A stretch of DNA of 64,000 bases, taken from the NCBI GenBank assembly GCA_038503065.1, contig JBCAMK010000016.1, forward strand, positions 1,240,001 to 1,304,000, given 5' to 3'. Within the stretch, counting starts at the first letter, position 1. Each line of letters opens with the position of its first letter. Below the pieces are notes generated by a model that did no database searches, was not told where the DNA came from, and was given only the letters and a program-made list of their open reading frames with translations. Source of the stretch: Paragyromitra xinjiangensis (Eukaryota; Ascomycota; Pezizomycetes; Pezizales; Discinaceae). This document shows positions 4,353 through 46,985 of the stretch, piece by piece. The position numbers and the translations under genes are program-made.

Positions 4353-4870
4353 CATCAGTAAAAAAAAAAAGGCATCCAGAAGGGTAACATTGTATAATGG
4401 CATTTTGACCCTCTGGAAGAGGGGCATTGCCTCTCAAACCCCTCCTGACAGCCTGCCTGCGCCCGTGCTGCATCTAGATGCGCTCTGACTAACTCTTACC
4501 GCCAGCCAACACCCGAGCGCCCTTCCTGAAGCCCGTGCTTTCACCGACCGACCTGTGTGCGTCCGACACCCTCCCGATGCGTATAGCTGCCGGATCTTTT
4601 TTTTTTATTTCGCTGCTCAAAACCCCGACTCCTAAGACTTAATGATTTTCAAAATCTTCAAGTTTTCACAGGTGTCGCCAAGAACGCCTACTAAGACACC
4701 TCCCTATTCCTTCCCATCTCGCTTCCCCTATTCTCTCCCACCCATTCCCTACTAACATCGCGAGATTTAGCTCGAGCAATAAGCTCGCTTCCGGCTAACC
4801 TCCTGCTAACGTCTTGCTTCCGTTTATTTGACTCCCGCTGATATGCCTCCTAGACTCGGTTCGATTCACA

Positions 4871-4902
<32 letters not shown>

Positions 4903-4943
4903 CTGCTTCCGCCCAAGTGAGCTCAGGAGGCAACTAAATTCGC
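4353..4943. other. CATCAG-1 left subterminal region, C/T-rich
   Basis: No gene. The segment from about 4680 to 4860 (GCCTACTAAGACACC..., CCCACCCATTC..., GATATGCCTCCTAGACTCG) is clearly homologous to 42730-42950 in CATCAG-4, which ties the two elements to one non-autonomous family. A CTGC/GCCTG short tandem repeat lies at about 4872-4900. Confidence 0.6.
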
Positions 4944-5425
4944 TGCCAGCCTCTGGCAGGTCGCCGATTCGCTGCCTGTGCTTCCTCCGCTTCCGCCATA
5001 TGGTCAATTCGCTGCAGCAGCTTCCGCTGCCTGCGCCAATAGGTCAATTCGCTGCCTGCGCTTCCGCCGCTTCCGCCATATGGTCAATTCGCTGCCTGCG
5101 CCATATGGTCGATCGGCTGACTGAGCTTCCGCCGCCGCCTCCGCCACAGCTGCTGCAGCTTCTGCTGCCTGCGCCAATAGGTCGATTCGCTGCCTGAGCT
5201 TCCGCCGCCTCTGCCACAGCTGCTGCTGCTTCTGCTGCCTGCGCCAATAGGTTGATTCGCTGCCTGCGCTGCCTGCGCCTGCGCCATATGGTTGATTCGC
5301 TGCTGCAGCTTCCGCCGCTTCCTCCGCTTCCGCCATATGGTCAATTCGCTGCTGCAGCTTCCGCTGCCTGCGCCAATAGGTCAATTCACTGCTGCAGCTT
5401 CCGCTCCCTGCGCCAATTGATTGAT
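4944..5425. repeat. About 40-bp satellite (GGTCAATTCGCTGC cores), about 10 copies
   Basis: Repeated cores GGTC(A/G)ATTCGCTGC are preceded by either CCATATG or CCAATAG and separated by CTGAGCTTCCGCC-type spacers, with period about 40 bp and irregular copies. The same satellite is larger in CATCAG-4 (42955-43880). Long open frames here, rich in Ala, Glu, Arg and Gln, are by-products of the repeat. Confidence 0.85.
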
Positions 5426-5947
5426 TCTCTGTGGGTAGTAAATGTTTGTACATATCTAAATAATATAAAATGATACAAGCGATATGCACTGTTAGTTTAA
5501 TCAATTCTGATTGGTCTTCAGATGTTAATGTGAATAAACCCCACTTTTTTGATTAGTTTACAATGCCACTGACGATTCTCATGTCTTAGTCCAAGCGCCA
5601 CCTACTTCATACATACAATTTTTTACTTTTTCTCACTCCGTCATATGTATTATGACTCATGGAGATCTGTTTTAGCAATACGAGAAAAAAAACAGGTTTA
5701 TTTAAAGAATTGATGCATGTCATTTGAGGTGCACGTCATTTTGATCATCAGTATTTGATATTTTTCTATATAGGATTGGATATTCTACTGCTCATTCACC
5801 CCCATTTCACATCGCGACAACCCAAGAATTCTATATAGCCAAGACAATTTCTATTTTTTTATTATACTACTACTCTGTCTTTAACAGACAATCATTCAAG
5901 ACATTTGACGTGTATCCTTGAGTTCTCAGTCAAATCGAGCCAACTCA
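5426..5947. other. AT-rich spacer before the Helitron genes
   Basis: No gene, hairpin or repeat that I can support. The 5' end of the Helitron (expected TC at an A/T site) probably lies here but cannot be placed. Confidence 0.4.
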
Positions 5948-6744
5948 ATGGCGTCGCTCTATGAAACATCTTTATACTCAGTAATGGCAGGGTCAGCAGA
6001 CATCGATTATATGCCATTGCCTCTCGGCGACCAAGACATTCCATGCACAGTGATATCCTTCGTTAATGACTATCAAGCGTGACATTGCAGTAAGGAGTGT
6101 GGCACTTTACTTTGGTCATTTGTACGATATGGGTCCAAATGAAGGAATCAGATATACTGTTCAACGCAGTTGAGTTAGTATTATCCTTAAAAATATAACT
6201 ATATTTAATAAATCAATTATTGACATTCAATAGGTTCATGGGTGATCCTAATCATTCCTCCTTTGCTGAGAATGCACCACCACCAACATGTGGAAACGTT
6301 TCCTGTGTTGGAAGAGTAGTTTCACAATCACGAACAGCTCCACTATCTACATATGGTGGCTGGCGTTGTTTCAACCTCCGTACAAGCTCTTATGACAATC
6401 AAGAAAAACAAAAACAATCCTTTCTTTTGCGGTGTTTTTTTCCATTGGGTAAAAGATTTGAAAAAACAATTTTACCAACAAGTGGATCTATTGTACAGCT
6501 TGCTGGTCAACTATTGGGAAGATTGAACGGTACATCTGATTCTGATCGTTTATTGGCTTTAAAGGTAGAGGGCGTAGAATATCTTTCTATTAGAGGTGGA
6601 AGTGGTAGTACAGGCTCTGGTGAAGGGGCAAATGCAATAGTTGGACCAAAAACACCACGAAAGTCAGCATGGGGAAAAAGCAGGGGTACTCCTTCAAAAC
6701 GTACAAGAAGTGGTACTGTCATTCAAGTTGAGTACATATTTTAA
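5948..6744 (+). pseudogene. Helitron-linked accessory gene, possible OB-fold single-strand DNA-binding protein
   Basis: ATG at 5948 starts a short exon beginning MASLYETSLYSVMAG. The frame is broken near 6090 (two stops), then continues with a segment reading WHFTLVICTIWVQMKESD. A 60-bp intron (6174-6233, GTTAGT..ATAG) leads into FMGDPNHSSF and on to a basic tail ending near 6744, possibly with a further intron at 6727-6810. The middle, with CGNVSCVGRVV, GWRCFNLR, FPLGKRFEKT and GSIVQLAGQLLGR, has the strand-rich spacing and Gly pattern of an OB fold. Plant and animal Helitrons are known to carry RPA-like genes. That assignment is inference, not a clear family match. Confidence 0.4.
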
Positions 6745-7257
6745 ATACTAATATATATTATATTTGTTGTTCATTACTAACTATAATCTTAAATACAATC
6801 AGGACACACATTCTACTACCAACGAAAAAGACACTGCCAGTTCGGATTTTTTGTCCTCTCCTTCTTCCTCTCAAATGTAAGGTCTTTAACTTTAAATTTT
6901 GTGACGTTTTCAAATATTAATTGTTAATTAGTATATAAGCAAGCACAATCTTTCTACTAGTTGAGCTTCGTATGATACGACTCAGATTTGTTTTTTTAGG
7001 ACTTTAGTTTGGGGGTATATATTTTTGGTTTTGGGTCCGTGTGTATGTGGGGGAAATATAGTGTATTAACCAACTAAATCCTATCCAAGTTTTTGTTCCA
7101 ACGTCATCATACAAATCATCACCTGTTATTTTAATCGAATTGACTTATATATCTCTCTTTCGCATCCTTGGATCAACTACATACTTGATAATTCAGTATA
7201 TCTCTGTGTTAATTAAAACTCTATATCCCTAGAAAAACACCATTATATCTACCTATC

Positions 7258-10200
7258 ATGCCACGAGTATCACCAAAAAACCAACCACGAACACGTGAAC
7301 AAATTTTAGACTCTCAACGACTTTTAATGCGTCGACGACGAGCTCAAATTGCTGCACAAAACACAAGTCACGATATAACTGATCTATCACTAAACTCACA
7401 CTTCACCTCTTCTTCATCGTATAAACATGAACCAACATGGTACGAAACTCTATCAAACATCAATCCAAGACAACCCAAGGCAATTTCACATACATGGTCA
7501 CGTAATTGTACCTTTTGTGGAATAGCACTACTCTCTACTGAACTCAACGGATGGTGTTGTAATAAAGGCAAAGCAATGCTTCCATCACTTCCACCATTTC
7601 CTCCTGAGATTGCTGATACAATGGTTGAGGTTGGCCCTTTATTAAGTCATATATCCAGAAAATTAAACAATTTATTTTGTTTTTCCATCATCGGAGTTAC
7701 AGGTGGATTTCGACAATTACCTACACCTTCCAATGTAGCTATATCTGGTCGAGTTTATCACCAACTACTAGATATCAATGAAGGCCAGCATTCAATTCGT
7801 TGGTTTTTATATGACGAACAAGAAAGACTCAACCGAGCTGTTCAACAAAGAGTCCCGCAATCTTTAGTAATCTCTTTTCGACAATTTTTGGATGCAGTTA
7901 ATCCTTATGTCCACCATCTTAGAAATGCTTTTTCCATGCCGTCTCTTGAATCTCAAGTTTTAGAACTTGAAGCTTCAACTATAGGAAATGAGATAGCAGC
8001 TATTATTCATACTGAGAATTTGAATAATTTACAACCACGAAATATACTTTTCTGGCGAAACGGACAACAACACCCTCATCCCCGAAAAGTTAATATCCTG
8101 TCAGCTCAATATGAACCTCTTCAATATCCAGTTTTTTTTCCTCATGGAACTACTGGCTGGCACGCTAACGCACCCTTATCCCAAATACGCTGGTATCGCA
8201 GTCGTTTGTTACAGGAGGAACGGTTTTTGGTTTTTGGTAGATTAACTTGTGAATATTTGGTAGACATGTATTTACGAGTAGAAGAAGAGCGGTTGGACTA
8301 TATTCGGAGAGGGCGAGAAAAACAGAGAATTCAACTACAAGATCAGCAAACAGAAAGTGCCAGTGGAGCAGAAGTTGAAGAGAGCGATGAAAATCAAAAT
8401 AACATTACCTTACCCTCTTCATTTTTGGGCTCCCGTGCATGGGCTTCAGAACAAGTAGCTGATTCTCTTGCTATTTGTCGACGATTTGGAAAGCCATCCT
8501 TTTTTATCACCATCACAACAAATCCTCAATGGCCAGAAATTGTTTCTCGATTACAGCCAGGTCAAAATGCATCTGATATTCCAATAATTGTGTGTCGAGT
8601 ATTTAAAGCAAGGCTTCGTGGGGCTATGAACTACATAAAAAAAGCATTTGGGCAAATTCTATATACTATTAGTGTTATTGAATTTCAGAAACGGGGCTTA
8701 CCACATGCTCACATCGTTCTCAAGGTTAGTTAATTCATTTATTTCATTTATATTCAGTTATATATTCTAAAAGTATTAGGTGTACCCAGATATCCCTCTG
8801 GAATATGTTGACTCCATTGTTTCGGCGGAATTACCTCTTGAACAAGATGACTCCCGGTTACGAGCATTGATCCTCAAATTTAACATGCATCCACTCAATC
8901 ATCTTGATAATCCAAACAGCCGGTGCAATCGAGGTGGTAGATGTGTTTGGAATTTTCCATTACCGCTCAATCAATCAACATCTCTCAATCAGCATGGACG
9001 ATTAGAGTATCGTCGTCGAAAAGAAGAAGACCGATGGGTAGTATCTTATATGCCCTGTTTGACTCGATTGTTAGAGTGTCATGTTAATGTTGACATATGT
9101 TTCACTGTCAATGTTTTCATGTATCTTTACAAGTACCTTTTTAAAGGTCCTGATCGAGCAATGTTTAATGTTAATTCTGTGGATGAAGCTCAAATTAATG
9201 AGATTGATGACTATATCAACGGAAGATATCTTTCCTCATCGGAGGCAGCTTGGAGAATTTTGCAGTTTAATGTTACTCAAAAATCACCTTCCGTTACAAC
9301 GCTTTCAGTTCACCTGCCAAATCAAAACCTTCGTCAAATGTATAGAAAAAATGGGACAGAATCAGAAGGATCAACACTTGCAAGATATTTTGCCCGTCCA
9401 GTATTACCTCAGTTTGCTTCTCTTCTATACACAGATTATTATCAGCAATATCGATTTTTGCCATATGTTGCAGGAAGTCAACCTCAACAAGGTCATTTTT
9501 TAGAAGTCTTATCATCATTTCCTCAACGTTTGGTTGTTAAACGAACTACAAAAGATACAGTTGCACGTATTGTAACTGTTCCTCCACGATTTGGCGAATT
9601 ATTTTACCTCCGAGCATTGCTACTACGAATACCAGGAAAGGACTTCACAGATATTCAGATCGCGAATTCGTAATATCCATTCCACTTTTCAGCAAGCAGC
9701 AATAGCGTTAGGCCTTTTTCAAAATGGTGAAGAAGCGGAGAATGTACTGCAGGAGGCAGTAGAATCATACACTACACCATCACAACTTAGATTTTTGTTT
9801 GCTCATATACTTTTAAATACACCATGTCCTGCAATCAATCTCTTCGAAAAGTATCAAGAAAATCTTTCAGCAGACTATCTTGATAAATACGACAGCCCTG
9901 CAGAAAGTTTACAACATACCTTATTAGACTTATCAAGACACCTGGTTCTCAATGGAGGACAACTGAAGGATTTTGGGTTACCTGAGCCTGAGGAGCGTAT
10001 GAATGAGTTGTATTTGGAGGATAATGCATTTTCCCACCGACGTGATGAGTTGGTTGAGCTATCTATAGCAATGCAATTACATCTCCTTCCAAAGACAACT
10101 GTACGTGTTTCAAACGATACTTCAAGCAATTCAAAAATAATCAACCAACAAACCAATGTTTTTTTTGGATGGCAAAAGGACGTGGAAAAACCTATACAGT

Positions 10201-11608
10201 GAATGCAATTGTGAACTACATTCATGGGCAAGGAAATATTGTGGTTATAGCAGGATCAACTGCACTTAGTGTGACACTTTACGAGCGTGGAAAAACGGCT
10301 CATTCAACATTTGGATTCCCGTTGTGGAGGTAAATTATCCTGTTGCCTACTTAAAATTTTATGTGGATTGGATATAACTATGTATATTCTTTAGAACAAT
10401 TCAGAGCTACAGTCAACTATCGGATTGAAATCTAATCGTGCTAAATTTCTCGAAGCGGCCCACTTATTAATATGGGAGGAGATGCCAATGGCTAATAAAG
10501 CTGCAATTGAATGTGCCGACTCCTTAATGAAAATGATCATGAAAAATGATTATTTATTTGGAGGGAAAGTGCTTTTGGGATTGGGTGACTTTCGTCAGGT
10601 TGCGCCAATAGTTAGTGGAACAGGACCGACATCAAGCTATCAAGCCTCTATTCACTCTTCTTTTTTATGGTCAGCCTTTCAAATTTTAAGGCTTCATGAT
10701 CCTATTCGCAATGTTTCAGATCTGGAATATTCAGAATGGATTGATCTTATAGGAGAAGGATCACATAATGACGAAGAGGTTTCACTTGATTTAATTGCAA
10801 CCGTCAACAACCTTGATGAAGTCATTCAATTTCTTTTTCCACCTGAAATATTGTTTTACGATAACAAAACTCTTTTGGCTCAACGAGCATTTCTTAAATT
10901 TCACTTAACATTTATGCGATGATTTCAATGACCAAATATTAAACCATATTTCAGATGACAAAGGTAACTCATAAAACTATAGTCGATAGAGTATTTTATA
11001 ATATCTTGCTAACTTATGGTAGCCACAACTTATTTCAAATTTCTGATTATATTAAAGAAGATGACGGAACACTAAAAACACCATCACCGGAGACAGCTGA
11101 ATTTCTTGCATTAGCCACCGAACCAGGAATTCCAGCTCACACTTTAAAGCTTAAACCTGGATGCCTTTGTTCAATTATGCGAAATCTATCCATTGAGCAG
11201 GGTTTGGTCAAAAATGTAAGAGTTTTTATAAAAAACTTACATCGTACCTTCATCGAGGTTGAGTGTTGTTCAATCACCGCTCATCTACCTTAAGAACAAA
11301 ATTTTCTGTCTTCCACGAATCAATTTCGAATTTTCACCACGCTTTCTGTCCCTGGACTATACAACGAAAACAGTATCCTCTACGTTTAAAGATATTCAAC
11401 AACTTTTAATAGTTGTCAAGGCTTGACATTAGAACGTGCTGTTCTTGATCTCCGTACTCCAGTTTTTGCACATGGTCAACTTTATACAGCAATCTCTCGT
11501 GTTCGTCATAGAGATTCTATTCGTGCACTTTTTACAGAAGATAATATACTCACCGTCGTACAAAAAATGTTGTTCATAAAAGTTTGTTATTGTAAATATT
11601 ATGTATGA
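7258..11608 (+). pseudogene. Helitron Rep/helicase polyprotein, decayed
   Basis: Exon 1 (7258-8724) carries the Rep part: CTFCG...GWCCNKGK zinc-like cysteines, FFITITTNPQWPEI (motif 1) and FQKRGLPHAHIVLK (HUH motif). A 55-bp intron (8725-8779) is followed by VYPDIPLEY and the tyrosine motif YLYKYLFKG. A frameshift near 9660 separates this from the TFQQAAIALGLF...NLFEKYQE region. Helicase motifs follow: a Walker A segment GRGKTYTVNAIV reached by another frameshift near 10170, an intron near 10330-10394, a Walker B-like IWEEMPM, GDFRQVAPI, and motif VI QLYTAISRV near 11480. Further stops lie near 10920 and 11290. It encodes rolling-circle Rep/PIF1-type helicase functions, now inactive. Confidence 0.9.
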
Positions 11609-11689
11609 AAGATAATTTATGTTGTGATTGAGCATGCGGGAAGTAGAAGGAAACAATGGGTAATTTGTATACAATAATGTGCGTGAAAC

Positions 11690-12200
11690 GGTTAAAGGCA
11701 GGAGGCAGGAGGTGAGAAGCGGGAAGCAAGTTGGAGATGGAGTATGTAGTCGATAAAATAAGAATTGCTAGATAGGTTGATAGATAGGTTGATAGATAGA
11801 TAGAAAAAATAGGAATTGGCAGGAAGGCGTGGAGGTGTGGAGGCACGGAGACACGGAGACATAGAGGTGTGGAGGCGTGAAGGCATAGAGGCATAAAGGT
11901 GTGGAGATGTGGAGGCGTGGAGGCGTGAAGGTATGGAGGCGTGGAGATGCGAAGGCATGGAGACATGGAGGTGTGGAGGCGTGGAGGTACAGCGGCGTGA
12001 AGATGCGAAGGCATGGAGGCTGGAGGCGTGAAGGCGTGGAGACACAAAGACACAGAGGCGTGGAGGTGTGAAGGCGTGGAGGCTTGGAGCGTAGAGGCAC
12101 GAAGGCGTGGAGGTGCGGAGGCATGGAGGCAAGGAGGCGTGGAGGCTTGAGACTTAAAGGCGTGAAGGCGTAGAGGCGTGGAGGCGTGGAGGCCAGTAAC
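11690..12200. repeat. Minisatellite of GGAGGCGTG units
   Basis: About 500 bp of 8-10-bp units built on GGAGGCGTG, with variants such as GGAGGTGTGG, GAAGGCGTG and GGAGACACG. Open frames on the minus strand reading LHAS/TPPRLH repeats are by-products. It starts just after the Helitron coding region, so it may mark material captured at the Helitron 3' side. Confidence 0.85.
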
Positions 12201-33412: not shown

Positions 33413-33657
33413 CATCAGCAAAAACAAACGACATTCCTCTGTGGCCTATTTGACCTCTGTGGCCTATTTGGCTCCTATTTGGCCTCTGTGGCCTCTGCAG
33501 AGGTCAACATTCCTCTGTGGAGGTTTCCGAGGAAATTTTGATATTTGCCTCTGCAGAGGCCACAGAGGCCACAGAGGTCCAAATAGGAGCCAAATAGGTC
33601 ACAGAGGTAAGAACATGATCCTAATTTCAAATAGGTCATTTTTTGTTCTTGCTGATG
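33413..33657. mobile_element. 245-bp CATCAG MITE in Gypsy A pol
   Basis: Starts CATCAGCAAAAAC and ends GTTCTTGCTGATG, with TG duplicated at 33411-33412 and 33658-33659. The interior is a large hairpin: CCTCTGTGGCC and GGCTCCTATTTGG units on the left are repeated inverted on the right, meeting around CCTCTGCAGAGG. It has no coding capacity. Removing it plus one TG restores an uninterrupted pol frame, which proves the boundaries. Confidence 0.92.
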
Positions 33658-33659
33658 TG

Positions 33660-35690
33660 GACATCTTCTCAGAGGAGAAAGCTAACATTCTTGCCTCCCA
33701 CCGACCCTACGATCATAAAATCATCCTGCAGGAAGGAACAACTCCACCGTTTAGTCCTTTATATGGCATGTCACGAGGAGAATTGGAAGTAATGAAGGAA
33801 AGCCTGGAAATCGACCTGAAACGACAATTCATTGAACCCAGTTCCTCACCCGCCGGTGCACCAGTTCTCTTTGTCAGAAAACCAGGAGGAGGCCTCAGGT
33901 TTTGCGTCGATTACCGAGGACTTAATACCATCACTGTAAAAGATCGGTATCCCCTACTGTTGATCAAGGAAACCCTCGACCGGTTATGCAAAGCTCGCTG
34001 GTTTACCAAACTTGACCTGAAGCACGCTTATCATTTGGTAAGAATCGCAGAAGGAGACGAGTGGAAAACCGCCTTTAGAACCAGATATGGTCACTTCCAG
34101 TACAATGTCATGCCGTTCGGTCTTACCAACGCCCCCGCCACGTTTCAACGGTTTATTAATGACACCCTTCGAGACCACCTGGACCTGTTTTGTACAGCAT
34201 ACCTTGATGACATCCTTATTTATAGCGATTCGTTAGAAGAACATGAGGAACACGTAAGAAAAGTCCTAGAATCACTAAGAAAGGCTGGATTATACTTGGA
34301 ACCACGGAAGTGCCATTTTCATGCCACCGAAACAACCTATCTCAACTTAATTATTACCCGTGATGGCATCAAGATGGATCCTAAGAAAGTACAAGCCATT
34401 CTAGAATGGGAAACCCCACAATCAGTAAAAGACATTCAAGGATTCCTAGGCTTTGCAAATTTCTATCGACGTTTCATCCTCAACTATTCTAGAATAGTAT
34501 CCCCACTGACAGCGCTAACGAAAAAGACATTAAATTCTTATGGTCCCCAGAATGTCAAAAAGCCTTCGATAGATTGAAACGCATGTTCTCTTCTGCCCCA
34601 ATCCTGATACACTTCGATCCGGAAAAAGATATCATAGTAGAAACGGATGCATCAGATTATGTCTCTGGAGGAATCCTATCACAATACGGTCCAGATGGTA
34701 TCCTTCACCCCATCGCGTTTTATTCCAAAAAATATTCACCAGCTGAATGTAACTATGAAATCTACGACAAAGAATTACTCGCGATAGTTCAAGCCTTCGA
34801 AGAATGGAGACCAGAACTGGAAGCAACCAAAGAACCCATTGCAGTACTTTGCGACCACAGAAACCTGGAATACTTCATGTCAACAAAACTTCTTAACCGT
34901 CGACAAGCCCGCTGGTCTGAATTTTTATCCCGTTTTAATTTCAAAATTATTTATCGACCAGGAAAACAAAGCGGAAAACCAGACGCATTAACAAGAAGGT
35001 CAGGAGACCTACCTAAAGAGTGGGATGAACGCCTGTCAAGTCAGATTCAGACGGTGCTGAAAAAAGAAAATCTTGATCCTAAGCTAAGTTTGTTCGCGGG
35101 TTCTTTGTCAAACGAATCCGTTGAAGGAATGTCCACGTTGGAAAAGCTGTTCGAAGATACCTATAAAGCTGACCCGTTCCCAAAAAAGGTACTCAAGATG
35201 CTCAACGATAAAGTTCAACAGTCCAAGGAAATTTCTTTAGCAGAATGTTCCGATGATGAAGGAAGACTTCGTTACCGAGACCGATTTTTTGTCCCTGATC
35301 ATTCTGATCTTCAACTTTATTTAGTTAAACAACATCACGATACACCCGCAGCAGGACATCCCGGAAGAACAAAGACCTTTGACCTCCTTGCTAGGAAGTA
35401 TTATTGGCCAAAGATGAGACAATATGTCGAAAGATATGTCCGAAACTGCCATACCTGTAGCCGAAGTAAAGCGCCTCGCCATGCACCCTACGGAGTGTTA
35501 CGCCGCTACCCATCCCAGAACGACCCTGGAAGGACATTTCAATGGATTTTGTTACAGGACTACCAGAAAGCAATGGGTTTGATGCTATATTGGTAGTAGT
35601 AGACCGATTATCCAAAATGCGACACTTGATCCCATGCCATACTACTACAGGATCCGAAGACCTCGTTCAATTGTATCTCGATTACGTTTG
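33660..35690 (+). pseudogene. Gypsy A pol: RT, RNase H and first part of integrase
   Basis: RT begins [11 protein letters not shown] and includes [29 protein letters not shown] and the catalytic YLDD (about 34200). One base is lost in an A-run near 34525, shifting the frame into RNase H (VETDASDYVSGG, DHRNLEYF). The integrase zinc domain (HHDTPAAGHPG...CHTCSRSK) follows. A second shift near 35505 leads into [10 protein letters not shown] and VVVDRLSKM, and the segment ends at LYLDYV, where the 11.3-kb CATCAG-3 element interrupts a codon. The remainder is at 46986-47928. Confidence 0.9.
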
Positions 35691-36134
35691 CATCAGCAAA
35701 AAAAAAATGTCGCCCCGACACTTTCTTGTCTTCCAGAAGGCCATATTCCGCCAGATTAGTTTCGGGCCTTCCAAAGCGCTTGGAAGACCGTTGCGAGCTG
35801 AAAGAACCTCCTGACGACCTCTCTCAGGTCGTCATCTTCCAGTGGCTGTATCCATGCCGTGCCTTCTGAACGGTCCCCTTGCCTTTTGACCTTCTTCAGG
35901 ACACCACCACTGCTGCAGCCTGCTGCCAGGTGGCATTGTTCCTTGGTGCTGGAGACACTTTCCGACCCGAATTACTATTCATTGACGACCTCTAGTAGGT
36001 CGTCGCCACGTTCTATGTACAGGTCCACCTTCCGACTCCACGTGAATTGGATCGACTTTTGTTGTGTGAGCCCTTCATTTTGACCCGCCAGCGACTACCC
36101 TCTTGAATCGACTCTCGTTGTGTAAGCCCTTCAT

Positions 36135-36640
36135 GTCGACCTCTAGTAGGTCGTCGCCACGTTCTATATACAGGTCCACCTTCCGACTCCACGTGAATTG
36201 GATCGACTTTTGTTGTGTGAACCCTTCATTTTGACCCGCCAGCGACTCCACGTGAATTGGATCGACTTTTGCTGTGTGAGCCCTTCATTTTGACCCGCCA
36301 GCGACTCCACGTGAATTGGATCGACTTTTGCTGTGTGAGCCCTTCATTTTGACCCGCCAGCGACTCCACGTGAATTGGATCGACTTTTGCTGTGTGAGCC
36401 CTTCATTTTGACCCGCCAGCGACTCCACGTGAATTGGATCGACTTTTGCTGTGTGAGCCCTTCATTTTGACCCGCCAGCGACTACCCTCTTGAATCGACT
36501 CTCGTTGTGTAAGCCCTTCATGTCGACCTCTAGTAGGTCGTCGCCACGTTCTATATACAGGTCCACCTTCCGACTCCACGTGAATTGTATCGACTTTTGT
36601 TGTGTGAGCCCTTCATTTTGACCCGCCAGCGACTACCCCT
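36135..36640. repeat. Tandem repeat with 59-bp unit near the CATCAG-3 left end
   Basis: A unit beginning CGACTCCACGTGAATTGGAT and ending GACCCGCCAG recurs at exact 59-bp spacing (starts 36243, 36302, 36361, 36420). Longer composite units that also include the 21-bp palindrome and GCCACGTTCTATATACAGG flank them (about 35984, 36135, 36522). Position near the element end suggests subterminal transposase-binding repeats, as in CACTA elements; that role is inference. Confidence 0.85.
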
Positions 36641-36721
36641 TTGAATCGACTTTCGTTCTGTAAGATTCATGTCGACCTGCAGTAGGTCGGTAATGGATTC
36701 TTGCTGTAAGTTCCAGCCTCT

Positions 36722-39700
36722 CTAGTATATGTCATTGAATGTCTCAAGATCCACCCTGCTATTTACATACCAATAGCCCTCTTCTAGATCCTGCACTAGA
36801 TGCGCCATCCCTGTAATCGAAGCTACACTCACAACCCACTCGTCATTACCAGGAATCCGCACATTACGAAGGCCAACTCTAATTAAGCTGCTGTTGGCCT
36901 CCAAGAGGCCGGCACCATCCAATCGAAGCATTTTGACGAGCGCAAGCCGATGGGTACGTCCCGAGCTCGGATCGCGGAGCTTAAACAAGCATCTCAATCG
37001 GCCAGGTAAGCGCCCACGCAAGGCACCATATTCGGTCTCGTTTCCTACCATAACCCAAACCCAGTCATTCCTTGCAGCCCCTCCTCGAAATGGCATATTG
37101 ATCGTGCATCGAAGGCGGTGTATGGTATAGATATCGGTCTCTTGGAATTTGAGCATGGGGACCTGAAGCTGTGTAAAACGCTCCGCTGGGCACAGCCTTA
37201 GTTTGACGTTGTCGGTTGGCAACCTCTGGGAGTCCGGCAAAGTACTGTTATATGACTCTACCTTCTGCACTAATAGACCCTTGGTATCACCAATATCCAG
37301 CATCACATCTTCGAGGGATTGAGTCAAACGGGCGCTTATACGCCCTCGGAGGTAAGATGGGGGCTTTCTTTCCGCTCTGATATCTGGCTCGCACCAAGCT
37401 GGAACCCTTTCCTTCTCTAGGAGATCTCTTACATCTTTTGGGAGTGACCCCGCCGGCCTCTCACGAGTCGCCTCCCGAATGGATATGATACGCATGGCCA
37501 TCAAGTGTCGACGAGAATAGTGCTCTAAGATCTGCTTGGTTGCATTGATCTTATTCGAGGCGCGATAACCGACTTTGATCTGTTCTTGATGTGAGGCTTC
37601 GCCGACCTCTGTGGAGTAGGCAACAATATTACCGAACTGCCTGACATGTGCGCTGAAGTGGCTCAATAGATGCATCTTGATGAAGTTGAAGTGAGATTCT
37701 TGGCGGTAGATATCCTGGCGCTGCTCTGACCTCTCCAATCTATCTTCTACCACCACCTTTCGCCTCTTCGCCGTACCCTGAGAGGCCGTCAACAGTTCCT
37801 CCTGAGCTTGCCGCATGGCTTTGTTGGCTCTCTTTGCTTTCGCATTCGTCGCCTTTGATTTGCGGAATTCGAGGAAGATATCCTTATGCTCGTGGAAGTC
37901 CTTCAAATAGCCTTCCATATAGTCAATAGTCTGTTCGGTGTGGCTGCGATATTGAGCCATTAGGTGGAAATCGATCAAGGCTTGGATACAGTCCAGAGCT
38001 CTCTTGAATGCCGGCCTTTCAGAGGTCGTCGGCTTCCGCAGAGCAACTGTCACTGCTACTAGGAGGAATCGACCAAGGTTCCGCATCTCTTTCCTCTGCC
38101 ACTGAGTCACCTCTCGATAGGCCCTTTTGGGAACTGTGATGCCCGTATCAGGAGGAATGGACTTCCATACTTTGTCGAATTGGTCGAGTCGGTTGTATTT
38201 GCCAAGGAAGCCTTGGATCCATTCCATCATATGCTTCAAAAAGACCTAAATAGACTGTATGTAAAAGGTCAGGCTTCCATAGAGCTTCTGGCCGGACTCT
38301 AAGCCGCCAAAAGCTGTTCATGAGTGCTTTTATACCCCTCTGCTGCAGCCAGTCTAGATCCCCGACCGAGCCTGTCTCTTGGTAGCGTTTTACTCGAGCC
38401 TTATAGCAATCGTGATTGCGTACTGGAAAGGGCTGCGTACAAAGCTGACCTAGACTAGGCGTCAATTTCGCAGACGGGGCAAGCATTATTCTTTAGGTGT
38501 TGGAGGGTGACGTGCTTTCTAAAAATGGTCTGCCAACCAGCCGCAGACTACTGGAAAGCAGAATCGCAGCTGACCATCAGCACATGGAAGCTGAACACCG
38601 CTTGTTGCCGGCTCGTGGAGGGTTGACATAGTCCTTTCCATGGCAAGATCTGGGACCGCGCGATTTCTTGACCTTTGTCTTCAGCAGCCTTGACCTTCAA
38701 CTTGCCGACCTTTGGCGGGACGGGAAGCAGTGCCAACAGTAACGATGCCATTGCGGAAGGTTTGTTTCGAAGTGTGGATTTGATATTGCCTATCGTCAAA
38801 TAGATGGGCCAAGCCTTTTATCGCCTGAGAAGTTGGTAAGATGTGTTTGATCCGACGAGCAAGAATTGGAATCAATGTGGAGCCAGCGGGGAGGGTTTTC
38901 ACCTGGCTGATTAGCAAACTCTGACGGCTCCTGTGAGGTCGGGAGCTAACCTGGAGATCCCACCACCAATCACTGTATGCATTTCTGAATACATTCTTTC
39001 ACCGGCAGGGTTGAATTCCTTCACCGGAGTGTAGACCATTTCCCCTGAATATGCTGTTTGGGCTAGCAAATATCGTATACAAACCATAGGATCGCGATGA
39101 CAGAATACAAAAGGCTCCCCATCAATCTCCTCCTCGATGAAGGTCCAGCTTGGCTCTCACAGGTCGTCGGCAGGTTCTCAATCACCTTGTAGAGGGTGTA
39201 GGCGGACCGATAGGAGCCGGCACCAAGGTAAAGACCTTTCTTGAAGTATTCCTCGATGCCAGTCTTCGTCGTTTTGGTATCAATAAACCATTTGGCTAAA
39301 TGGAAGTCATAAGCAGTGTGGAAGGGGAATAAAGGGAATTGGAGCAAGCTTTCCTGAGCTTCTAGGAAGCCTGGCACGCTTCCTGCCGGCCTCCCTGCAT
39401 CCGGTAAGAAGCTTTGACTGATCTTTGGGGACTTCGGCTGCACCATTATCGTTGTCTTCAGCATCAGAGGCTGTAGCTGGTTCTTCATCTGAATTATTGT
39501 CCGAATCGTAAATTGATGATCTATCACTCCTTCTATCGAGGTAGTCCTCTGCCGGCTCTTCTTGGTCCGTCAGTGGATCGTCAAGATAAACTTCTGCTTG
39601 CTCAGGGTGCTTGGTCAAGATATGGGTTATCAAAGCTGAGCTGTAGTCGTAGGAATATCGACAGAAGGGGCAGCGGTCTGGCATGTTTGGAGGTTTGGTA

Positions 39701-39786
39701 GTAAAAGGGGTAGCGAGGTGTTGTGGAATAATAGGGGACTGATGGTCCGGCATTGACGACCTACGAAGAGCGGAGAAGAGGCTCAT
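36722..39786 (-). pseudogene. Plavaka-type transposase, interrupted
   Basis: Start at 39786 (MSLFSALRRSSMPDH). Order: a C2H2 zinc finger CPFCRYSYDYSSALITHILTKH, an acidic linker, then FPFHTAYDFHLAKWFID (39300), YRSAYTLYKVIENLP, EPFVFCHRDPMVCIRYLLAQ, ERMYSEMHT...DWWWDLQ, and TLPAGSTLIPIL with THLTNFSGDK and LTIGNIKSTLRNKPSA (38780). Next come a CPVCEIDA cysteine pair, ALWKPDLLHTVYLGL, and an uninterrupted 505-codon C-terminal part (38239-36722) with HFNFIKMHLLSHFSAHVRQFG and STEVGEASHQEQIKVGYRAS. This order is typical of fungal Plavaka transposases. One intron is clear (38903-38950) and holds a palindrome copy. Other breaks (about 39430, 39130, 38860, 38480 and a T-run at 38240) look like frameshifts, so it is probably inactive. 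Confidence 0.85.
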
Positions 39787-40575
39787 CGCACTCCCAGCCG
39801 TGTCTTGGGGTTGAGATCAGGGGTTGAGCCTGACGTCGGGGTTGATATGGCGCCTGATTCAAAGATAAGAGCCGCAACGCAACAGGCTTGGACCTTTGCA
39901 GCCACGCAGTCTGTCTTTGAAGCTTGACGACCAGCTCAATTGCAGCTCAACAGCAGCAGGATCCTCAAAAAAAAAGTTGCTCTAAATCCTGAGATTTTCT
40001 GGCGTGTGGATCCTCCACCGGCCTACAGGAGGTCGGCAGGTTCCTTTCACAACTTTTGCGCATATTGAAATAGCGCTAGTGCTGTATAACCCTAACCCTG
40101 AGTCCTTTAAGAGTTTCGGATTTGCTAACTCTTACGTCAACCCTCCACCCCCTCACCTTCCAACCTCCAACCTCCACCTCCTCGCACTATTCACACCACC
40201 ACCTCCTCCCTCGCAGCCTCCTTCAACGCAGCGTTTCAAGCTGCAGCTGCTATTCAGCTCAACGTTTCAAGTTGCTGCTCTCGCAATCTTGCCTTCCAGC
40301 TTGAATAGCCAGCAAAGGCTATAAAATGGCAGATATGGCGCCTCCAACCGAGTCAGAACCAAGCAGAGCAAACAAAACCCCCCCGCCCAATCTAAACAAT
40401 CAAACAACCCCACCAAACAGTGTACCGACCTCTCGCAAGCCGTCGCAAACAGATCCATCCTGACGACGAATATCACGAGCCTTAACCCCCGCGACAAAAA
40501 ACTCCAGTATATCGATCACCCCGGCAATCATCAACCCAACTGACCTCCCCCAAGCCGGCAAGCACCCCTACCAAG

Positions 40576-41991
40576 ATGCCGCCCCGCGCCAGAGCGACTG
40601 AAATGACTGCAGCAGATCTCAAAATAGTGTTGGGCTTCAGCGCAACCAACAATCAAGCCTATTTGATCGTTCGTGATGATATTGTTTCCTACGCTATTCA
40701 GCACGGTATCACAGGCGTCGACACCCTGGAAAGGCTGCCTGGACTGCTTGTGAGGAGCACGCAGTCAGCCACAAATACCTGAGCCGCTTCAAGGAAGCCT
40801 ACGAAGGAGCAGGGCCAAAGGAGAATACCGCAGTCGTTCGAAGGCTATCAAATGCCTTTGCCTCGACGCTATCAAGAAGAAGAACGCTGCCAGAGCAGCA
40901 GCGGATAAGCAGATGGCAGATAATGGTGACTTTGACGGGCCTGCTGCCGGCCTCACTAGAGCTGTCGCCGCCGCTGGTGCTGCTGGCGCTGCTGCACCTT
41001 CACCTTCCCGCATCATTCAGGTCCGCATCGTCGATCCTGACATAATTGGTGCCTACGACAGCGATGCACCTCTACCACGCCAGACAAGCGGATATGGCTG
41101 GGACCCAGCTAATACCATCTTCCAGAAGCTGACGACCTTCCCAGAGCCGGTCACGCACCGTGATATCTTGACATACGCAGCAAAGCATGTCGCTGAGAAT
41201 CGTCGCGCTCGCGCAGTTTGAGAGCTCTTGTCCCCATACCTGAAGACTTTCGGATATCTACTAACGATGAGATGATTCTCAGCGAGGATGACGAGGTGAC
41301 GGCCTGGCTGAGGTCGACAACGGCTAACCCCCCGGTTGTGAACGTTATTCTTCATCGGGTTACTGCCAAAGGAATGCGATCGCGCCAAACCCCGCCGCCC
41401 TCTGGCGAGCGGGCACATATCTCCAAGCGCTATTTCGCCTCTCTTCTCGAGGACCCTGCCGAGGATTCTGACGAGGACGACCGCCCGCTTCGGAAGAAGT
41501 TTAAGCCGCTGCCGCGTACAGATAGGGGCTTCCAAGCTCGCGAAAGGAAGATTCGGGCACGAATCTTGCGCCAGCAAGAGCTCCTGGAGTCAGTCAAAGA
41601 GCATCACAAGGAGATAACGCCAGACGCCATATTTTCTGACGAGGAAGGGTTTGAGAACAGGTATATGTCGGCCGCTCAGAGGCGGGCAGCTAGGGAAGCG
41701 GTTAAGGCAGCAGCTGAAGCGGAGGAGGACGAGGAGTTGGAGGAGGAGGAGGAGAAGCAGGAGGAGGAGAAGGGGGAGGAGGAGGAGGATAAAGAGGAGG
41801 AGAACGACGGAGGGGATGGGAAGGGTGGGGCTGACGAGGATGTTGGAGCTACCGCGCTTACTGCGGCCATTTCGTCCTCGATTTCCTATTTTCTTCAGTT
41901 TTGTAGTTGTGGCAACCCCCTCGGCCTCCTGAGGCCGGCAAATTTCTTTATCCGTTTCTTTATCCGTTTCTTTTTGTTTTCTTTTGGTTGA
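40576..41991 (+). pseudogene. CATCAG-3 accessory gene 1, acidic/coiled-coil protein
   Basis: Starts MPPRARATEMTAADLKIVLGF at 40576. It is followed in shifted frames by an Ala-rich segment (DAIKKKNAARAAADKQ, 40870-41221: TSGYGWDPANTIFQKL, THRDILTYAAKHVAENRR) and by 41218-41991. That last frame has a charged helix (RERKIRARILRQQELLESVKEHH) and an extreme Glu-rich tract (41720-41810). Frame changes near 40760 and 41215 may be introns or decay. I do not recognise a family. It is divergently placed relative to the transposase (39786 and 40576), so the two could share the promoter region 39787-40575. Confidence 0.5.
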
Positions 41992-42376
41992 TATATGATG
42001 GATACGCATGATTATTTTTTGGTAGGTCAAACCTTCTCCTATCCGGTTACCTAAATACTGACTGGCTTGTCAAGGTTTATGTATAGCGCTTACCGACCTC
42101 CCAGAGGTTGGCGGTCTTGGGTTTCCTATTCTTATTATTATACCGGATTCTTTATATGTTTTATATCCTTTTCTTTATATGTCGTTTTAGAGGGTAGAGG
42201 GTAGAGGGGGCAGCAAGGCATGGATGAGTGCTGGTACGTTCCTTCCTGCCAATCGTTTGAGATCTAAAGCTGACTCTTAGGTAGCACCCAACGACCTTCA
42301 GGAGGCCGGCAGGATCTTTGTATTATCTTATTATCTGTATTATCTGTATTATTCCTATTATTCCTACTATTCCTAG

Positions 42377-43207
42377 CATCAGCAAAAAAAAAATTGCGCC
42401 CAATAGGTACATATTCCGCCCGACCGCCTGCCGCGCCTGGGCGACACTGGCTGCCTGCTGCGATTCCCCCGGGCGTCGCTTGCTGCCTGCAGCGCTTCCC
42501 GGCGACCTCCCACCATCCGGCAGCGCTGGGCGGCAGCTTGAGTACTTAGCAAATTTTCGATCGAATTTGCGATCGAATTTTTCTAAGTCCCTGAGAACTC
42601 GGGACTTAGCAAATTTCACTTTACTCGCCTCCCAGGCACTTAGCGATTTCCAAAAATCTGGAGGTCGCTTAGTCATCACTTTGTAGTCGCCAAGTCGTCG
42701 CCAAGTCGTCGCTTAGTCGTCGCCAAAGCAACGCCTAGTAAGACACCAATCTCCACCTCCCCCTATTCCTTCCCGTCCTTCCTTCTATTGCTTCCCCCTA
42801 TTCCCTCCCACCCATTCTCAACCTCGCTGTACCACTGACATCGTGACTTTTAGGCTCGAAGTACTAAGCTCTGTTTGCAAAGAAACTCCTAGGTAACGTC
42901 TCGCTTCTGTTTATATGATTCCCGCTGATATGCCTCCTAGACTCGCTTTGATCCGCTGCTTCAACTTCCGCTGCCTCCGCTGGCTGCTTGCTTCCGCCTA
43001 AGCGAGCTCAGCAAACAGCTCAATTCGCTGCCTCAGCTTCCTGAGCTTCCGCCGCCTCCTAGAGGTCGTCGATCCGCTGCCTGAGCTTCCGCTGCCTCCG
43101 CCATATGGTCGATTCGCTGCCTGAGCTTCCGCCGCCTCCGCCACATGGTCGATCTGCTGCTGCAGCTTCCGCTGCTTCCTCCGCTTCCGCCATATGGTCA
43201 ATTCGCT

Positions 43208-43248
<41 letters not shown>

Positions 43249-44275
43249 CGCCTGCGCCAATAGGTCGATTCGCTGCCTGAGCTTCCGCCGCTTCCGCCAT
43301 ATGGTCAATTCGCTGCCTGAGCTTCCTCCGCTTCCGCCATATGGTCGATTCGCTGCCTGAGCCTGAGCCTGAGCCTGCGCCTGCGCCAATAGGTCAATTC
43401 GCTGCCTGAGCCTGAGCCTGAGCCTGAGCCTGCGCCAATAGGTCGATTCGCTGCCTGAGCTTCCGCCACTTCCGCCATATGGTCAATTCGCTGCCTGAGC
43501 TTCCTCCGCTTCCACCATATGGTCGATTCGCTGCCTGAGCTTCCGCTGCCTCCGCCACATGGTCGATTCGCTGCAGCAGCCTCCGCTGCCTGCGCCATAT
43601 GGTCAATTCGCTGCCTGAGCTTCTGCCGCCTCAGTCAATTGGTCGATCCGCTGCCTGCCTCTGGCAGGTCGTCGATTCGCTGCTGCCGCTTCTGCCGCTT
43701 CCTCCGCTTCCGCCATATGGTCAATTCGCTGCCTGAGCCTGAGCCTGCGCCTGCGCCAATAGGTCAATTCGCTGCCTGAGCTTCCTGCGCCTGCGCCAAT
43801 AGGTCGATTCGCTGCCTGAACCTGAGCCTGAGCCTGCGCCAATAGGTCAATTCGCTGCCTGCCTCTGGCAGGTCGTCGACTCGCTGCTGCAGCTTCCACA
43901 GAAGCTAGTTTAGCTGCGCCCTCGATATTTGTACATAGATAGATATATAGATAGATACATAGAATAAAGCAATTGTCAATGATATTGGTTCCATACAAGT
44001 GATTCCCGAATATTCCAGGCCCTACTGCACAAATCCATTCTACAGGGCGAACTGCTGCCAAAATCCTGCGGCAGCGAGGGACCACCCACGCCCAGAAGCA
44101 GCCCACTACACCACTTGCTACAGGATGAAACGACCTCCTCCAGGCGGTCAAAGGTCTAGAAACTATGCCTCCCGGGCGCGCCGAGGTGCTGCAGCAACCT
44201 AGCAGAAGGGTAACATTCCGCCCGACCGCCTAGACCTCCAGGCGGCCAGGGCGGCTTTATCGATTTTTGCTGATG
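42377..44275. mobile_element. 1.9-kb non-autonomous CATCAG element nested in CATCAG-3 (CATCAG-4)
   Basis: Starts CATCAGCAAAAAAAAAATTG and ends GATTTTTGCTGATG. Both subterminal regions contain CCGCCCGACCGCCT-type sequence in inverted arrangement. The flanks are one interrupted TATTATTCC microsatellite (42320-42376, 44276-44320). The 2-bp duplication is not clean (TAG on the left, TAC on the right). Layout is TIR, C/T-rich homology to CATCAG-1, satellite, 3' region; no transposase. Confidence 0.8.
42955..43880. repeat. About 40-bp satellite (GGTCAATTCGCTGC cores), about 20 copies
   Basis: Cores GGTC(A/G)ATTCGCTGC recur near 43107, 43195, 43262, 43303, 43344, 43392, 43441, 43481, 43520, 43561, 43601, 43718, 43762, 43801 and 43846. 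They follow either CATATG or CAATAG alternately. Internal GAGCCT hexamer expansions lie at about 43209-43250, 43365-43380 and 43412-43432. It is homologous to the array at 4944-5425. Confidence 0.9.
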
Positions 44276-44781
44276 TACTATTTGTATTATTCCTATTATT
44301 TGTATTATTCGTATTATTATGGCGGTAGCGATTAGATGTTAGATATCTTGGCGTTTCTATTATTGGCCTTGGGGCAGCAAGACATTGGCTGTTGCAGGTA
44401 CCCTACTACCCTATCAATCTTTTATAGCTAAACGCTAACGTCTATGAGACAGTATTTGCCGACCTTCAGTGGGCTGGTAGAAGGTCTTACTATCTTTATG
44501 GCGTCATTTGACCGGATTCGCTTAATTACTAATCATTTTTATGTATCTACAAATATATCTACTAGCCGCTGCTGCTAGGTGTGGCAGCAGAGCTGAGGAT
44601 CCGGTCATTTCCAGTCATAGCGTGCTTCCGTGGTAACCAATGTTTTGCGAGTCCGTGCAAAGCCCCTTTACTTATTCCCCCAAGCAGACGCCGACCTCTC
44701 TCAGGCCGGTCAATACCTTACCTCTCATCCAAAAAGCTGTCGACTCCCTACTGAACAAACTCCTTTACCACTACAGAAAAA
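43881..44781. other. Right end of CATCAG-4 and following CATCAG-3 spacer
   Basis: 43935-43965 is a GATA-type simple repeat; 44276-44325 a TATTATTC microsatellite. No gene is supported. Palindrome copies are at about 44460 and 44690. Confidence 0.45.
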
Positions 44782-46402
44782 ATGATCAGAAATTCAGGTA
44801 AGAAAGCTAGCACTTCAAAACGCCGTTCGATGCAGATAACAAAGCCTTTCCTACCACCCCCCCCCTCCACCAGGAATCTGCCGTCTCGTGAGAGGTCGGT
44901 GGAAGAATATAGGGGGACGCAAAGCTATGAAGACGCAGCAGAAGACGAAGACGAAGATGAAGACGAAGATGACGAAGACGAAGATGACGAAGATGAAGAG
45001 GAAGAGGAAGAAGGAGAAGGGGGAGAAGACAATAACGATGAGAATCTACGGGCTTTTCGTAGAACCTACGAGAGTGACGATTCAGATTATGAATCACCTC
45101 CGACCTTGGAGAGGCCGGCAGGCCCTTCCAAAAAGCCTACTGCGAGGCATCGAGAGATGATACAGGCAAACCTCATTCGCAAAAAACTGGCAAGTACAAT
45201 TAATTCTCACTGGCAAGTCATTTTTAATAGCCTACTAATGAGTGTGATAGGGCATGAATTTGGAGCCGGTACCGAGCAGCACCATGCCGACTCCTCTGCA
45301 GCTGGCACATGGTAGCACTGTAGTATGATCAACACGACTCATAGTCGCAATCGAGACCGGCGTGTTCTGCGCAGAAGACTCCCTGCAGCCTGTTGCTCGG
45401 CCTGCAAAGCTGTATATTGCTTCTTTCACCTACTTCAGGCATCCCTTTCCTGACGGAATCGAGATGGCCAAATGGACGAAAAGAGCACTGCAAGAATCAA
45501 GCTGAGAAGGATATGGGCGTAGTATGCCCTATCAATGAGTGTGCTTCAACTTGGTATGTTGCCGGCCTCTGTGAAGCCGATTGAGTATTCTAACAGCTCT
45601 AAGCTAAAAGCAAAGCAATGGAGCACACGGTCCCAATTTCTCGCTCACATCAAAAGAACGTGTTGACTGCCTACAATCTTACGGATCTGGAAGGAGGAAG
45701 AGCGCCAGAAGAAGATCGAATATCTGTTGGATGACGACAGGTTCACCTGTCACCCTGATGCATATGAGGTCAGTACAAACTCCTACTAGTATATGACGAC
45801 CGCTGACGAGCCGGCAGAGTCTAGAGGGTAGATTCCTTGCTCCACAAATTCCCTTCCTGATATTTAGTAAGTTTTATGAAGGTAAGAAGGCTCTCGGAAG
45901 GTCGGATAGAACCTTCATCGGGAGTATCAATACCGTATTCATTGCAACGACTGCAGCAATGATATATCACTGTCTTTCTGCTTGGAAAACAGGCGCCTAT
46001 GAAGACCCCAAGGACTTCAACACCACAAACGCTCTCTGTAAGTTATGGACGACCTACGGGAGGCCGGTATTCTCTGCTGACAAGATGATAGATCCTTGGC
46101 ACCGTCAGCTGAACACAATACAGATCATAGATGTCGAGATTCGGGAAATGTTACTAAATGATATCTGCCGCCAGATCAATGATCTTGTAGGGTATCTTCC
46201 CCCTTACAACGTGATACTAGCTAATGATATTAGCGAGCGAAAGGCAAGACGTTGGCCCGTATATCGAGTCGCAGGATGCCTTCCGGGGAGATCAGGACGA
46301 CTAAAAGCAATACTAGAGCTGTGGAAGAGAAGGCTCGTCGACGACCCTCCAGCAGCCGTATGCTCGGCGGGCTCGGCAGTCAAGCTCCAGCCCAAACCCT
46401 AG
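44782..46402 (+). CDS. CATCAG-3 accessory gene 2, DUF6532-like protein with acidic N-terminus
   Basis: ATG at 44782 (MIRNSGKKASTSKRRS), then a long Asp/Glu tract (44935-45025) and a segment with ERPAGPSKKPTARHREMIQANLIRKKL. Further exons read TYFRHPFPDGIEMAKWTKRAL (about 45430) and IWKEEERQKKIEYLLDDDRFTCHPDAYE (45685-45768). After an intron, SLEGRFLAPQIPFLIFSKFYEGK...IATTAAMIYHCLSAWKTGAY (45818-46000) resembles the DUF6532 domain found beside Plavaka-type elements in fungi. Clear introns are 45554-45596 and 45769-45817, each containing a palindrome copy. Splicing between 45200 and 45420 is unclear and a frameshift lies near 45660, so decay is possible. Confidence 0.55.
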
Positions 46403-46983
46403 TGACCCGATTGAAGAAGTGGCTGCCATCCTGGCGGCAATCCCTGCCTCGGAGGGAAATGGCACCTAGGAGCTTGCTGACGACCTCGCACGAGCCGACA
46501 AGAAGAACTGGAAAGGCGTTGGGGGTCGAGTAAGAGGAAGGATAGGGAAGGGAAGAGAGAGGTGAGGTGAGCGGAAGGAGGAGAGGCAGCCAAGGATATA
46601 TGTAATAGTAGAGTAATAGACTAGAGCGTTTCAAGGAATATATAGCCATTTTACCACACGCCCGAATATAAGCCTCCTAAAGATAAGGCTACACGATCAT
46701 GAGCATCCGTGATCTTCAGAACGTCAGATCCAGAAAGAATGCGTCCGGACTGTAGGAGGTCGTCAAGGTCTCCGAGAAGAACGATGTCGAAGCAGAGCCA
46801 TCCAGAGGCTGGGCTACCACAATAGTTGCGAAAGGGGTCATCAGGACTGACGACCTCCCAAAGGTCGCCTCCGGGCGCAGAGAGCAGAGTTTACAACCTG
46901 AGGGAGGGCTATATTCCGCCCCGACCACCCGAAGCGTCTGATGCATTGGGCGCACCGGGCGACATTTCAATTTTTTGCTGATG
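46403..46983. other. CATCAG-3 right end region
   Basis: Purine-rich stretch 46520-46600 (GGAAGGAGGAGAGG), then the right subterminal part with palindromes at about 46752 and 46849-46869 and GCCC-rich sequence before the tip. No gene is supported. Confidence 0.45.
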
Positions 46984-46985
46984 TG

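Follow-up and report, generated by a model that had tools for sequence, protein, structure and literature searches.

A palindrome array spread along a whole Plavaka transposon of Paragyromitra xinjiangensis resembles transposon signals of plants

The element and its palindromes

The DNA examined here, called the window below, is a stretch of 64,000 nucleotides (64 kb) from Paragyromitra xinjiangensis (contig JBCAMK010000016.1, positions 1,240,001 to 1,304,000), with positions counted from its first letter. It harbors an 11.3-kb DNA transposon, with paralogues elsewhere in the same genome, along which an interrupted palindrome recurs through noncoding DNA, exons and introns. The element starts with CATCAGC at 35691, ends with GCTGATG at 46983, and interrupts a Gypsy open reading frame (ORF) that we take to be pol. 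The available part of Kojima 2025 (PMC12730594) gives PlavakaB elements CATCA..TGATG ends, target-site duplications of 2–3 bp and kinship to EnSpm. The window element has these 5′-CATCA..TGATG-3′ termini and a 2-bp duplication, TG on each side. The Plavaka transposase domain is recognized through the paralogue C15:1733565 (243.8 bits), the transposase fragment of the window by itself scoring under the Pfam Plavaka cut-off (15.3 vs 26.3 bits).

35689..35690, left target-site duplication TG, junction CGTTTG/CATCAG
35691..46983, Plavaka (PlavakaB-like) DNA transposon, family A, inserted in the presumed Gypsy pol gene
36722..39816 (approximate limits), minus strand, transposase gene, frame-broken, palindromes in exons and intron
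40326..41860 (end approximate), plus strand, orf2, broken in the window copy
42377..44275, nested nonautonomous CATCAG element carrying its own palindromes
44782..46402 (approximate), plus strand, orf3, DUF6532 domain, short introns
46984..46985, right target-site duplication TG, junction GCTGATG/TGGAAA

The palindrome, TGMCGRCCT-N5-AGGYCGKCA, consists of two inverted 9-bp halves on either side of a 5-bp spacer. The pattern TGMCGRCCTNNNNNAGGYCGKCA was scanned over the window, with the element simulated 50 times by a first-order Markov model as the control. With up to two mismatches, 15 places were found in the element, none in the 52.7-kb flank and 0.0 on average in the simulations; the corresponding numbers are 27, 1 and 0.02 for up to three mismatches, 36, 2 and 0.4 for up to four, and 45, 8 and 2.98 for up to five. 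An earlier note on this DNA had described an array of palindromes within one transposon, and the 27 places against a single one in the flank bear it out.

A half-site matrix was built from the sites with up to three mismatches. At the reporting threshold of 9.5 bits it yields 41 sites, more than the 25 or so first counted, and of these 36 lie in the element proper, as had been proposed for all copies, and five (42500, 43049, 43652, 43856 and 44128) belong to the nested element. The matrix derives from the same element, and the independent figures are those of the mismatch scan and of the genome-wide pattern counts. The sites are as follows, with scores in matrix bits and no strand assigned.

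35812..35834, left noncoding end, 27.7
35983..36005, left end, tandem-repeat unit, 26.0
36134..36156, left end, tandem-repeat unit, 24.5
36521..36543, left end, tandem-repeat unit, 24.5
36670..36692, left end, 24.2
36892..36914, transposase exon, 20.0
37217..37239, transposase exon, 16.2
37451..37473, transposase exon, ERPAG, 12.0
37600..37622, transposase exon, 15.4
37769..37791, transposase exon, 13.6
38009..38031, transposase exon, SERPA, 25.5
38606..38628, transposase exon, 12.1
38703..38725, transposase exon, 16.0
38922..38944, transposase intron, 16.4
39384..39406, transposase exon, GRPAG, 12.8
39550..39572, transposase exon, 12.5
39754..39776, near transposase 5′ end, 10.4
40016..40038, intergenic, 23.5
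40423..40445, orf2, 20.1
40538..40560, orf2, 13.0
40945..40967, orf2, 14.5
41130..41152, orf2, 15.1
41297..41319, orf2, 25.5
41666..41688, orf2, 16.4
42091..42113, intergenic, 20.5
42289..42311, intergenic, 23.4
42500..42522, nested element, 10.6
43049..43071, nested element, 12.0
43652..43674, nested element, 21.2
43856..43878, nested element, 21.2
44128..44150, nested element, 16.8
44457..44479, intergenic, 18.3
44689..44711, upstream of orf3, 20.1
44879..44901, orf3 exon, 13.1
45098..45120, orf3 exon, ERPAG, 21.5
45560..45582, orf3 intron 45554-45596, 15.7
45794..45816, orf3 intron 45769-45817, 16.4
46047..46069, orf3, possible intron 46038-46084, 21.7
46478..46500, near orf3 end, 18.9
46743..46765, right end, 15.5
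46848..46870, right end, 20.8

The spacer length of 5 is strictly required, since 39 sites reach at least 11 bits with it and 0 to 8 do so with any other spacer from 0 to 11. The arms are conserved, as had been noted, but the spacers are not entirely free: a pyrimidine occupies their first base in 33 and their second in 37 of the 41 sites. Generic 8-bp inverted repeats, with 7 matches out of 8 and a spacer of 5, occur at 8.0 per 10 kb in the element and at a scarcely lower 6.8 in its flank, indicating that this specific motif, not palindromes in general, is enriched. At a half-site threshold of 9, 49 of 51 strong half-sites lie within inverted pairs, and the two unpaired halves are no more than the 4.5 expected from the flank; at thresholds of 10, 11 and 12 there are again two, against 1.5, 0.9 and 0.6 expected.

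The flank contains four palindromes of at least 9 bits. The strong one, at 4944 (18.7 bits), is located within a sequence of 40-bp minisatellite repeats (4700-5500) resembling that of the nested element. The flank had been thought to lack comparable copies, which is correct for matches with up to two mismatches but overlooks this site. The ratio of observed to expected CpG dinucleotides is 0.89 in the non-palindrome DNA of the element and 0.88 in the flank; with the two ratios equal, there is no sign that the palindromes protect CpG, and this idea was dropped.

The copies are evenly spaced, a feature absent from the earlier note. Outside the nested element the median distance is 227 bp with a coefficient of variation (CV) of 0.46, compared with 0.94 for random placement, and only 3 of 34 gaps are shorter than 145 bp where 14.7 are expected. 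A 3-kb stretch of the related family B, L040, carries 11 sites of at least 11 bits with a median gap of 198 bp and a CV of 0.37, which is matched by 0.2% of random placements. Strict periodicity was rejected. Because the distances between all pairs show no clean multiples, the claim made here is of even spacing with a minimum.

Sites in codons, introns and paralogous copies

Three coding stretches, drawn from the paralogues C15b and C2b, were shuffled 1000 times among synonymous codons, and sites of at least 12 bits were counted. Transposase exon 2 holds 7 sites, compared with 0.33 after shuffling, the transposase exon-1 stretch 2 compared with 0.07, and orf2 5 compared with 0.21; in none of the three did any of the 1000 shuffles attain the real number. 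The GC-rich sites, some of them within tandem repeats, might be taken for mere side effects of the repeats of the element or, alternatively, of GC-rich codon bias, the latter a danger to its reading that the earlier note had itself raised. Markov simulations and synonymous-codon shuffles yield almost no sites, however, which rules out codon bias as the cause of the coding sites and leaves the by-product explanation practically no weight.

In C15b, transposase exon 2 contains eight sites, which were compared with 14 of 120 listed homologues. At seven of the eight, 12 to 14 of the 14 homologues align without a gap opposite the site, and at the eighth, in a stretch of variable length, 8 of 14 do so. 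All three reading frames are used by these sites. Palindromes had also been placed inside three introns, and the probable introns 38903-38950, 45554-45596 and 45769-45817 indeed run from GT to AG and hold one palindrome each; a possible fourth intron, 46038-46084, has the same borders and a palindrome inside. In intron 45769-45817 the palindrome provides CTGAC and overlaps the terminal CAG. The loss of the transposase frame near 39170, for which coincidence with a palindrome had been suggested, fits a local change at 39159, CTA>AC in the window copy where copies C17a, C15a and C7 read CTA, rather than the insertion of a palindrome.

Excluding the nested element, the window has 36 sites, which were followed in 10 paralogues, three of them in the right-hand block only, giving a grid of 282 cells in which window sites alone were scored. 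The site is kept at the aligned place or within 12 bases of it in 244 cells. The remainder consists of 14 larger gaps or truncations, 13 weak sites and 11 sites of altered spacer length, and a clean empty site was found in 0 of the 282. Such fixed positions are what the earlier note had expected of binding sites. The left tandem-repeat region of C2b and C15b has at least one further site, missing from the window, and sites have been duplicated locally in tandem both in the window (35983/36134/36521) and in L040 (854/1069/1300).

These results bear on a second reading offered before, that a miniature palindromic unit moves or multiplies inside the family. The many copies, their local multiplication by tandem repeats and the site that C2b and C15b have and the window lacks would suit such a unit. 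Apart from at least one differing tandem-repeat unit, however, precise presence and absence between copies is not seen; the grid, which scores window sites, has no clean empty site, and at seven of eight exon-2 sites, which use all three frames, 12 to 14 of the 14 homologues show no sign of an insertion. In addition, the arms are as complementary between sites as within them: in 37 unique sites, the two arms agree at 200 of 333 positions, compared with 213.5 for shuffled partners. The arms vary independently of each other. The same independence speaks against RNA hairpins working in transcripts, an idea to which the inverted repeats within transcribed regions and introns had lent some appeal. 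Arm pairing does not exceed that of shuffled partners, at half position 6 A.C mismatches (12) are as common as G.U (9) in the 37 unique sites, and sites are also found in terminal DNA beyond the genes. Both models were rejected on these grounds; we leave the hairpins a very small chance and the mobile unit a smaller one still.

The arms are better conserved than the spacers in all five pairwise comparisons. Set against 2000 random windows, they stand out in two comparisons of the right-hand block, clearly in the one where 3 placements reach the value and moderately in the one where 68 do. Among the close copies (35691-46983, L020-L029), 224 unique indels outnumber 187 single-nucleotide variants (SNVs), and there are 68 adjacent multi-base changes, the commonest being CT>AC and GC>AG with 8 each; GACCT[CT>AC] recurs in the spacers of different copies. 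In the spacers, widened by one base at either edge, unique multi-base substitutions amount to 27.9 per kb compared with 6.6 elsewhere, and indels to 52.3 per kb compared with 23.6. The spacer changes could possibly be cleavage scars or footprints, relaxed spacers or long-read assembly errors.

Distribution in the genome

The 21-base pattern with up to one mismatch occurs at 246 places in the genome and its reversed form at 4, and the exact asymmetric form CGACCTN5AGGCCG occurs at 88 places compared with 5 for the reversed pattern. The scan had been suggested by the earlier note, which saw a danger to its reading in equal density throughout the genome; the density is unequal. Assigned to families by distance alone, 76 of the 88 exact places lie within 9 kb of an anchor of family A, 10 within 9 kb of one of family B, and 2 near neither, below the 5 seen with the reversed pattern. 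Counted from the anchors, family A has the exact form near 14 of 15 orf2 places and all 8 fragments, and family B near 6 of 7 orf2 places. The motif marks two related families, A and B. A B-like transposase piece (C6:1386637-1388825) has no CGACCTN5AGGCCG within 9 kb. The flanks of the orf2 site at 41666 match those of a family B site, L040:200, at 31 of 60 positions, where the random maximum is 25.

Transposases of family A are mostly 85–100% identical to the query, those of family B 61–71% and those of other Plavaka elements 38–52%, while damaged family A pieces (C7, C9 and the window) reach 54–63%. For orf2 the identities are mostly 62–100% in family A, 51–58% in family B and 25–34% in distant elements. 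Twenty-nine of 30 distant orf2 places have no CGACCTN5AGGCCG within 9 kb, the thirtieth being near a family A fragment, in a comparison that covers this one exact form. Copy C17b (L038/L039) of family A holds a distantly related Plavaka element at 2709-12014. This element has one site of 11.8 bits, near chance, and no other like motif was found in it, its best dyad significance being 7.4 compared with 22.1 for the window element; two shuffles gave 5.0–5.1, so that a weaker motif is possible there. A CATCAGC end of another element is also observed inside a family B orf3 (L040:2402-3021), with no palindrome of at least 11 bits in its 620 bases.

Could the sites serve a host protein, as nucleation points for silencing or as transcription-factor sites? 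Each half contains a CpG, and a binder encoded by the element is itself a proposal. Nevertheless 86 of the 88 exact places are within 9 kb of families A or B, the other two falling below the five of the reversed pattern, and a selfish element should not keep targets of silencing throughout its codons. We regard this explanation as improbable.

The nested element (42377-44275) is missing from 7 of 7 paralogues with alignment across that point, and its insertion point is uninterrupted in C17a and C15a. Its type of palindrome occurs at 94 places with up to two mismatches and at 0 in reversed form. The places read directly are the nested element, window position 4944, and insertions in or neighbors of C15a and C9; the remaining ones would be copies of the same nonautonomous family. 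Three short CATCAG elements of 247–249 bp have no site of at least 9 bits, and the one in C15b has 21 bases, TGTCTTCCAGAAGGCCATATT, in common with the left end of the window element. A further miniature element, CATCAG...CTGATG, of 245 bp is observed in the left flank of the window (33413-33657), likewise with no palindrome of at least 9 bits.

It could also be that the palindromes are transposase-binding sites for excision and integration, like the subterminal repeats of CACTA elements, and have merely extended inward. Plavaka transposases are akin to those of EnSpm/CACTA, according to the available text of PMC12730594, and in that of PMC2613891 the protein TNPA binds repeated, partly palindromic subterminal motifs needed for transposition. 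A C2H2-like zinc finger at the N-terminus of the transposase, with a Pfam score under the cut-off, and the retention of sites by the nested nonautonomous element agree with this explanation. The sites are not concentrated at the element ends, however. Moreover, since the three short elements have none and the one in C15b shares TGTCTTCCAGAAGGCCATATT, short relatives appear to have moved without sites, unless other families moved them. We consider this explanation unlikely.

A proposed binding-site array and its plant counterparts

We read the palindromes as an array that a sequence-specific protein would bind as a dimer, acting on behalf of this transposon clade, and give this reading, drawn from sequence, a probability of roughly 0.7. 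It is suggested by the fixed spacer, the independent inverted halves, the coding and intron sites born by substitution, and the restriction to the clade. Dispersed binding sites were the other reading of the earlier note, and the fixed positions, the arms better conserved than spacers in five of five comparisons, the strict spacer, the independent halves, the codon shuffles and the restriction to two families all favor it. In the proposed mechanism, each 9-bp half TGMCGRCCT would be read by one subunit, with the two halves facing each other over the fixed 5-bp spacer. Sites would arise in place through point substitution and, in noncoding parts, by local tandem duplication, and selection would keep them across noncoding DNA, exons and introns, mostly at one per 150–280 bp.

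The binder is probably encoded by the element itself. The candidates, in order, would be the orf2 product, the transposase with its C2H2-like finger, and the DUF6532 protein of orf3; the orf2 product is placed first because accessory proteins of CACTA and VANDAL elements recognize family-specific repeats. The orf2 gene is intact, with 505 residues, in the C2 copy (L036). The transposase exon of the window is 92% identical, over residues 221–726, to the open 726-residue exon of C15:1733565; among the 120 matches listed, the closest transposase relatives are metagenome proteins, and the named ones come from Morchella, Maublancomyces, Kalaharituber and Dactylella.

Several observations weigh against the proposed binding-site array. 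No domain stands out in the orf2 product (best Pfam E 0.028, under the cut-off), its best PDB sequence match has an E of only 0.022, the 7989 candidates scored include no relative outside this genome at E<=1e-3, and its AlphaFold model, with a mean predicted local distance difference test (pLDDT) score of 41, is unusable. Because the matrix derives from the window element, the codon-shuffle test favors the natural sequence, and the below-chance arm complementarity may stem from thresholding on the summed score. In the other three comparisons with random windows the arms are not significantly above random placement (330, 308 and 1161 of 2000). Close copies have 33.5 SNVs per kb in the arms, 20.9 in the spacers and 18.8 elsewhere, an excess that speaks against simple constraint and of which CpGs in the arms may explain part.

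As to function, by analogy with VANC the array might serve self-recognition, so that the element stays free, over its full length, of silent chromatin or DNA methylation; this is possible, at somewhat under even chances. A role in transposition or self-repression, by analogy with TNPA, seems unlikely. The chromatin role is preferred to end pairing because of the even coverage at nucleosome scale. Tentatively, and at rather longer odds than the chromatin role by itself, the element may have rewritten its genes, introns and noncoding DNA to carry dimer sites at nucleosome scale, so that its own protein coats it and holds off silencing. In the literature searched, outside which most subscription papers lie, no equivalent of such a whole-element self-label is described.

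The family-specific transposon motifs known from plants, those of VANC and TNPA, are noncoding or near the ends, and here the motif is in codons and introns as well. Selection appears to have put sites there at nucleosome-scale spacing, which makes the cis part of such a system legible straight from the sequence. The motif would offer a precise handle on how fungal DNA transposons escape silencing, and marks the Plavaka clade in which it occurs.

The nearest relatives in kind, PlavakaB elements, share the CATCA..TGATG termini, the 2-bp target-site duplication and the Plavaka transposase with the window element, and the available text of Kojima 2025 (PMC12730594) describes no dispersed palindrome in them. 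The distant Plavaka copies of the present genome are likewise without CGACCTN5AGGCCG, the one form searched, except for the copy near a family A fragment.

The VANDAL/VANC system of Arabidopsis resembles the array in having a family-specific, multi-copy motif in a DNA transposon, introns included, whose copies multiply via tandem repeats, as they do in the window and in L040. As given in the available parts of PMC5735166 and PMC10398659, VANC21 recognizes YAGTATTAY in VANDAL21 DNA that is noncoding, and tandem repetition multiplies its targets. The VANC21 motif is noncoding, two coding-region probes being without it (PMC5735166, in the part available), whereas the window element has noncoding sites together with coding sites in excess of the codon shuffles. 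The VANC-type domains DUF1985 and DUF287, which belong to the VANDAL system, gave no Pfam match in nine ORFs of the window and four paralogue proteins.

CACTA/EnSpm elements, such as maize En/Spm and soybean Tgm, are alike in carrying many short family-specific motifs, some in inverted pairs, and a related class of transposase; in the known cases of the sources available a separate DNA-binding protein is encoded by the element. The TNPA-bound CACTA repeats, which include palindromic ones, extend no further than 159 and 732 bp inward from the ends of soybean Tgmt (PMC2613891, in its available text). The window element also has motifs near its ends, five sites at the left and two at the right. 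As far as these sources go, however, CACTA motifs are subterminal, while those of the window element run throughout its 11.3 kb, exons and introns included, evenly spaced and with almost every one part of an inverted pair around 5 bp. The palindrome array thus resembles the signals of plant transposons but is much more widely spread.

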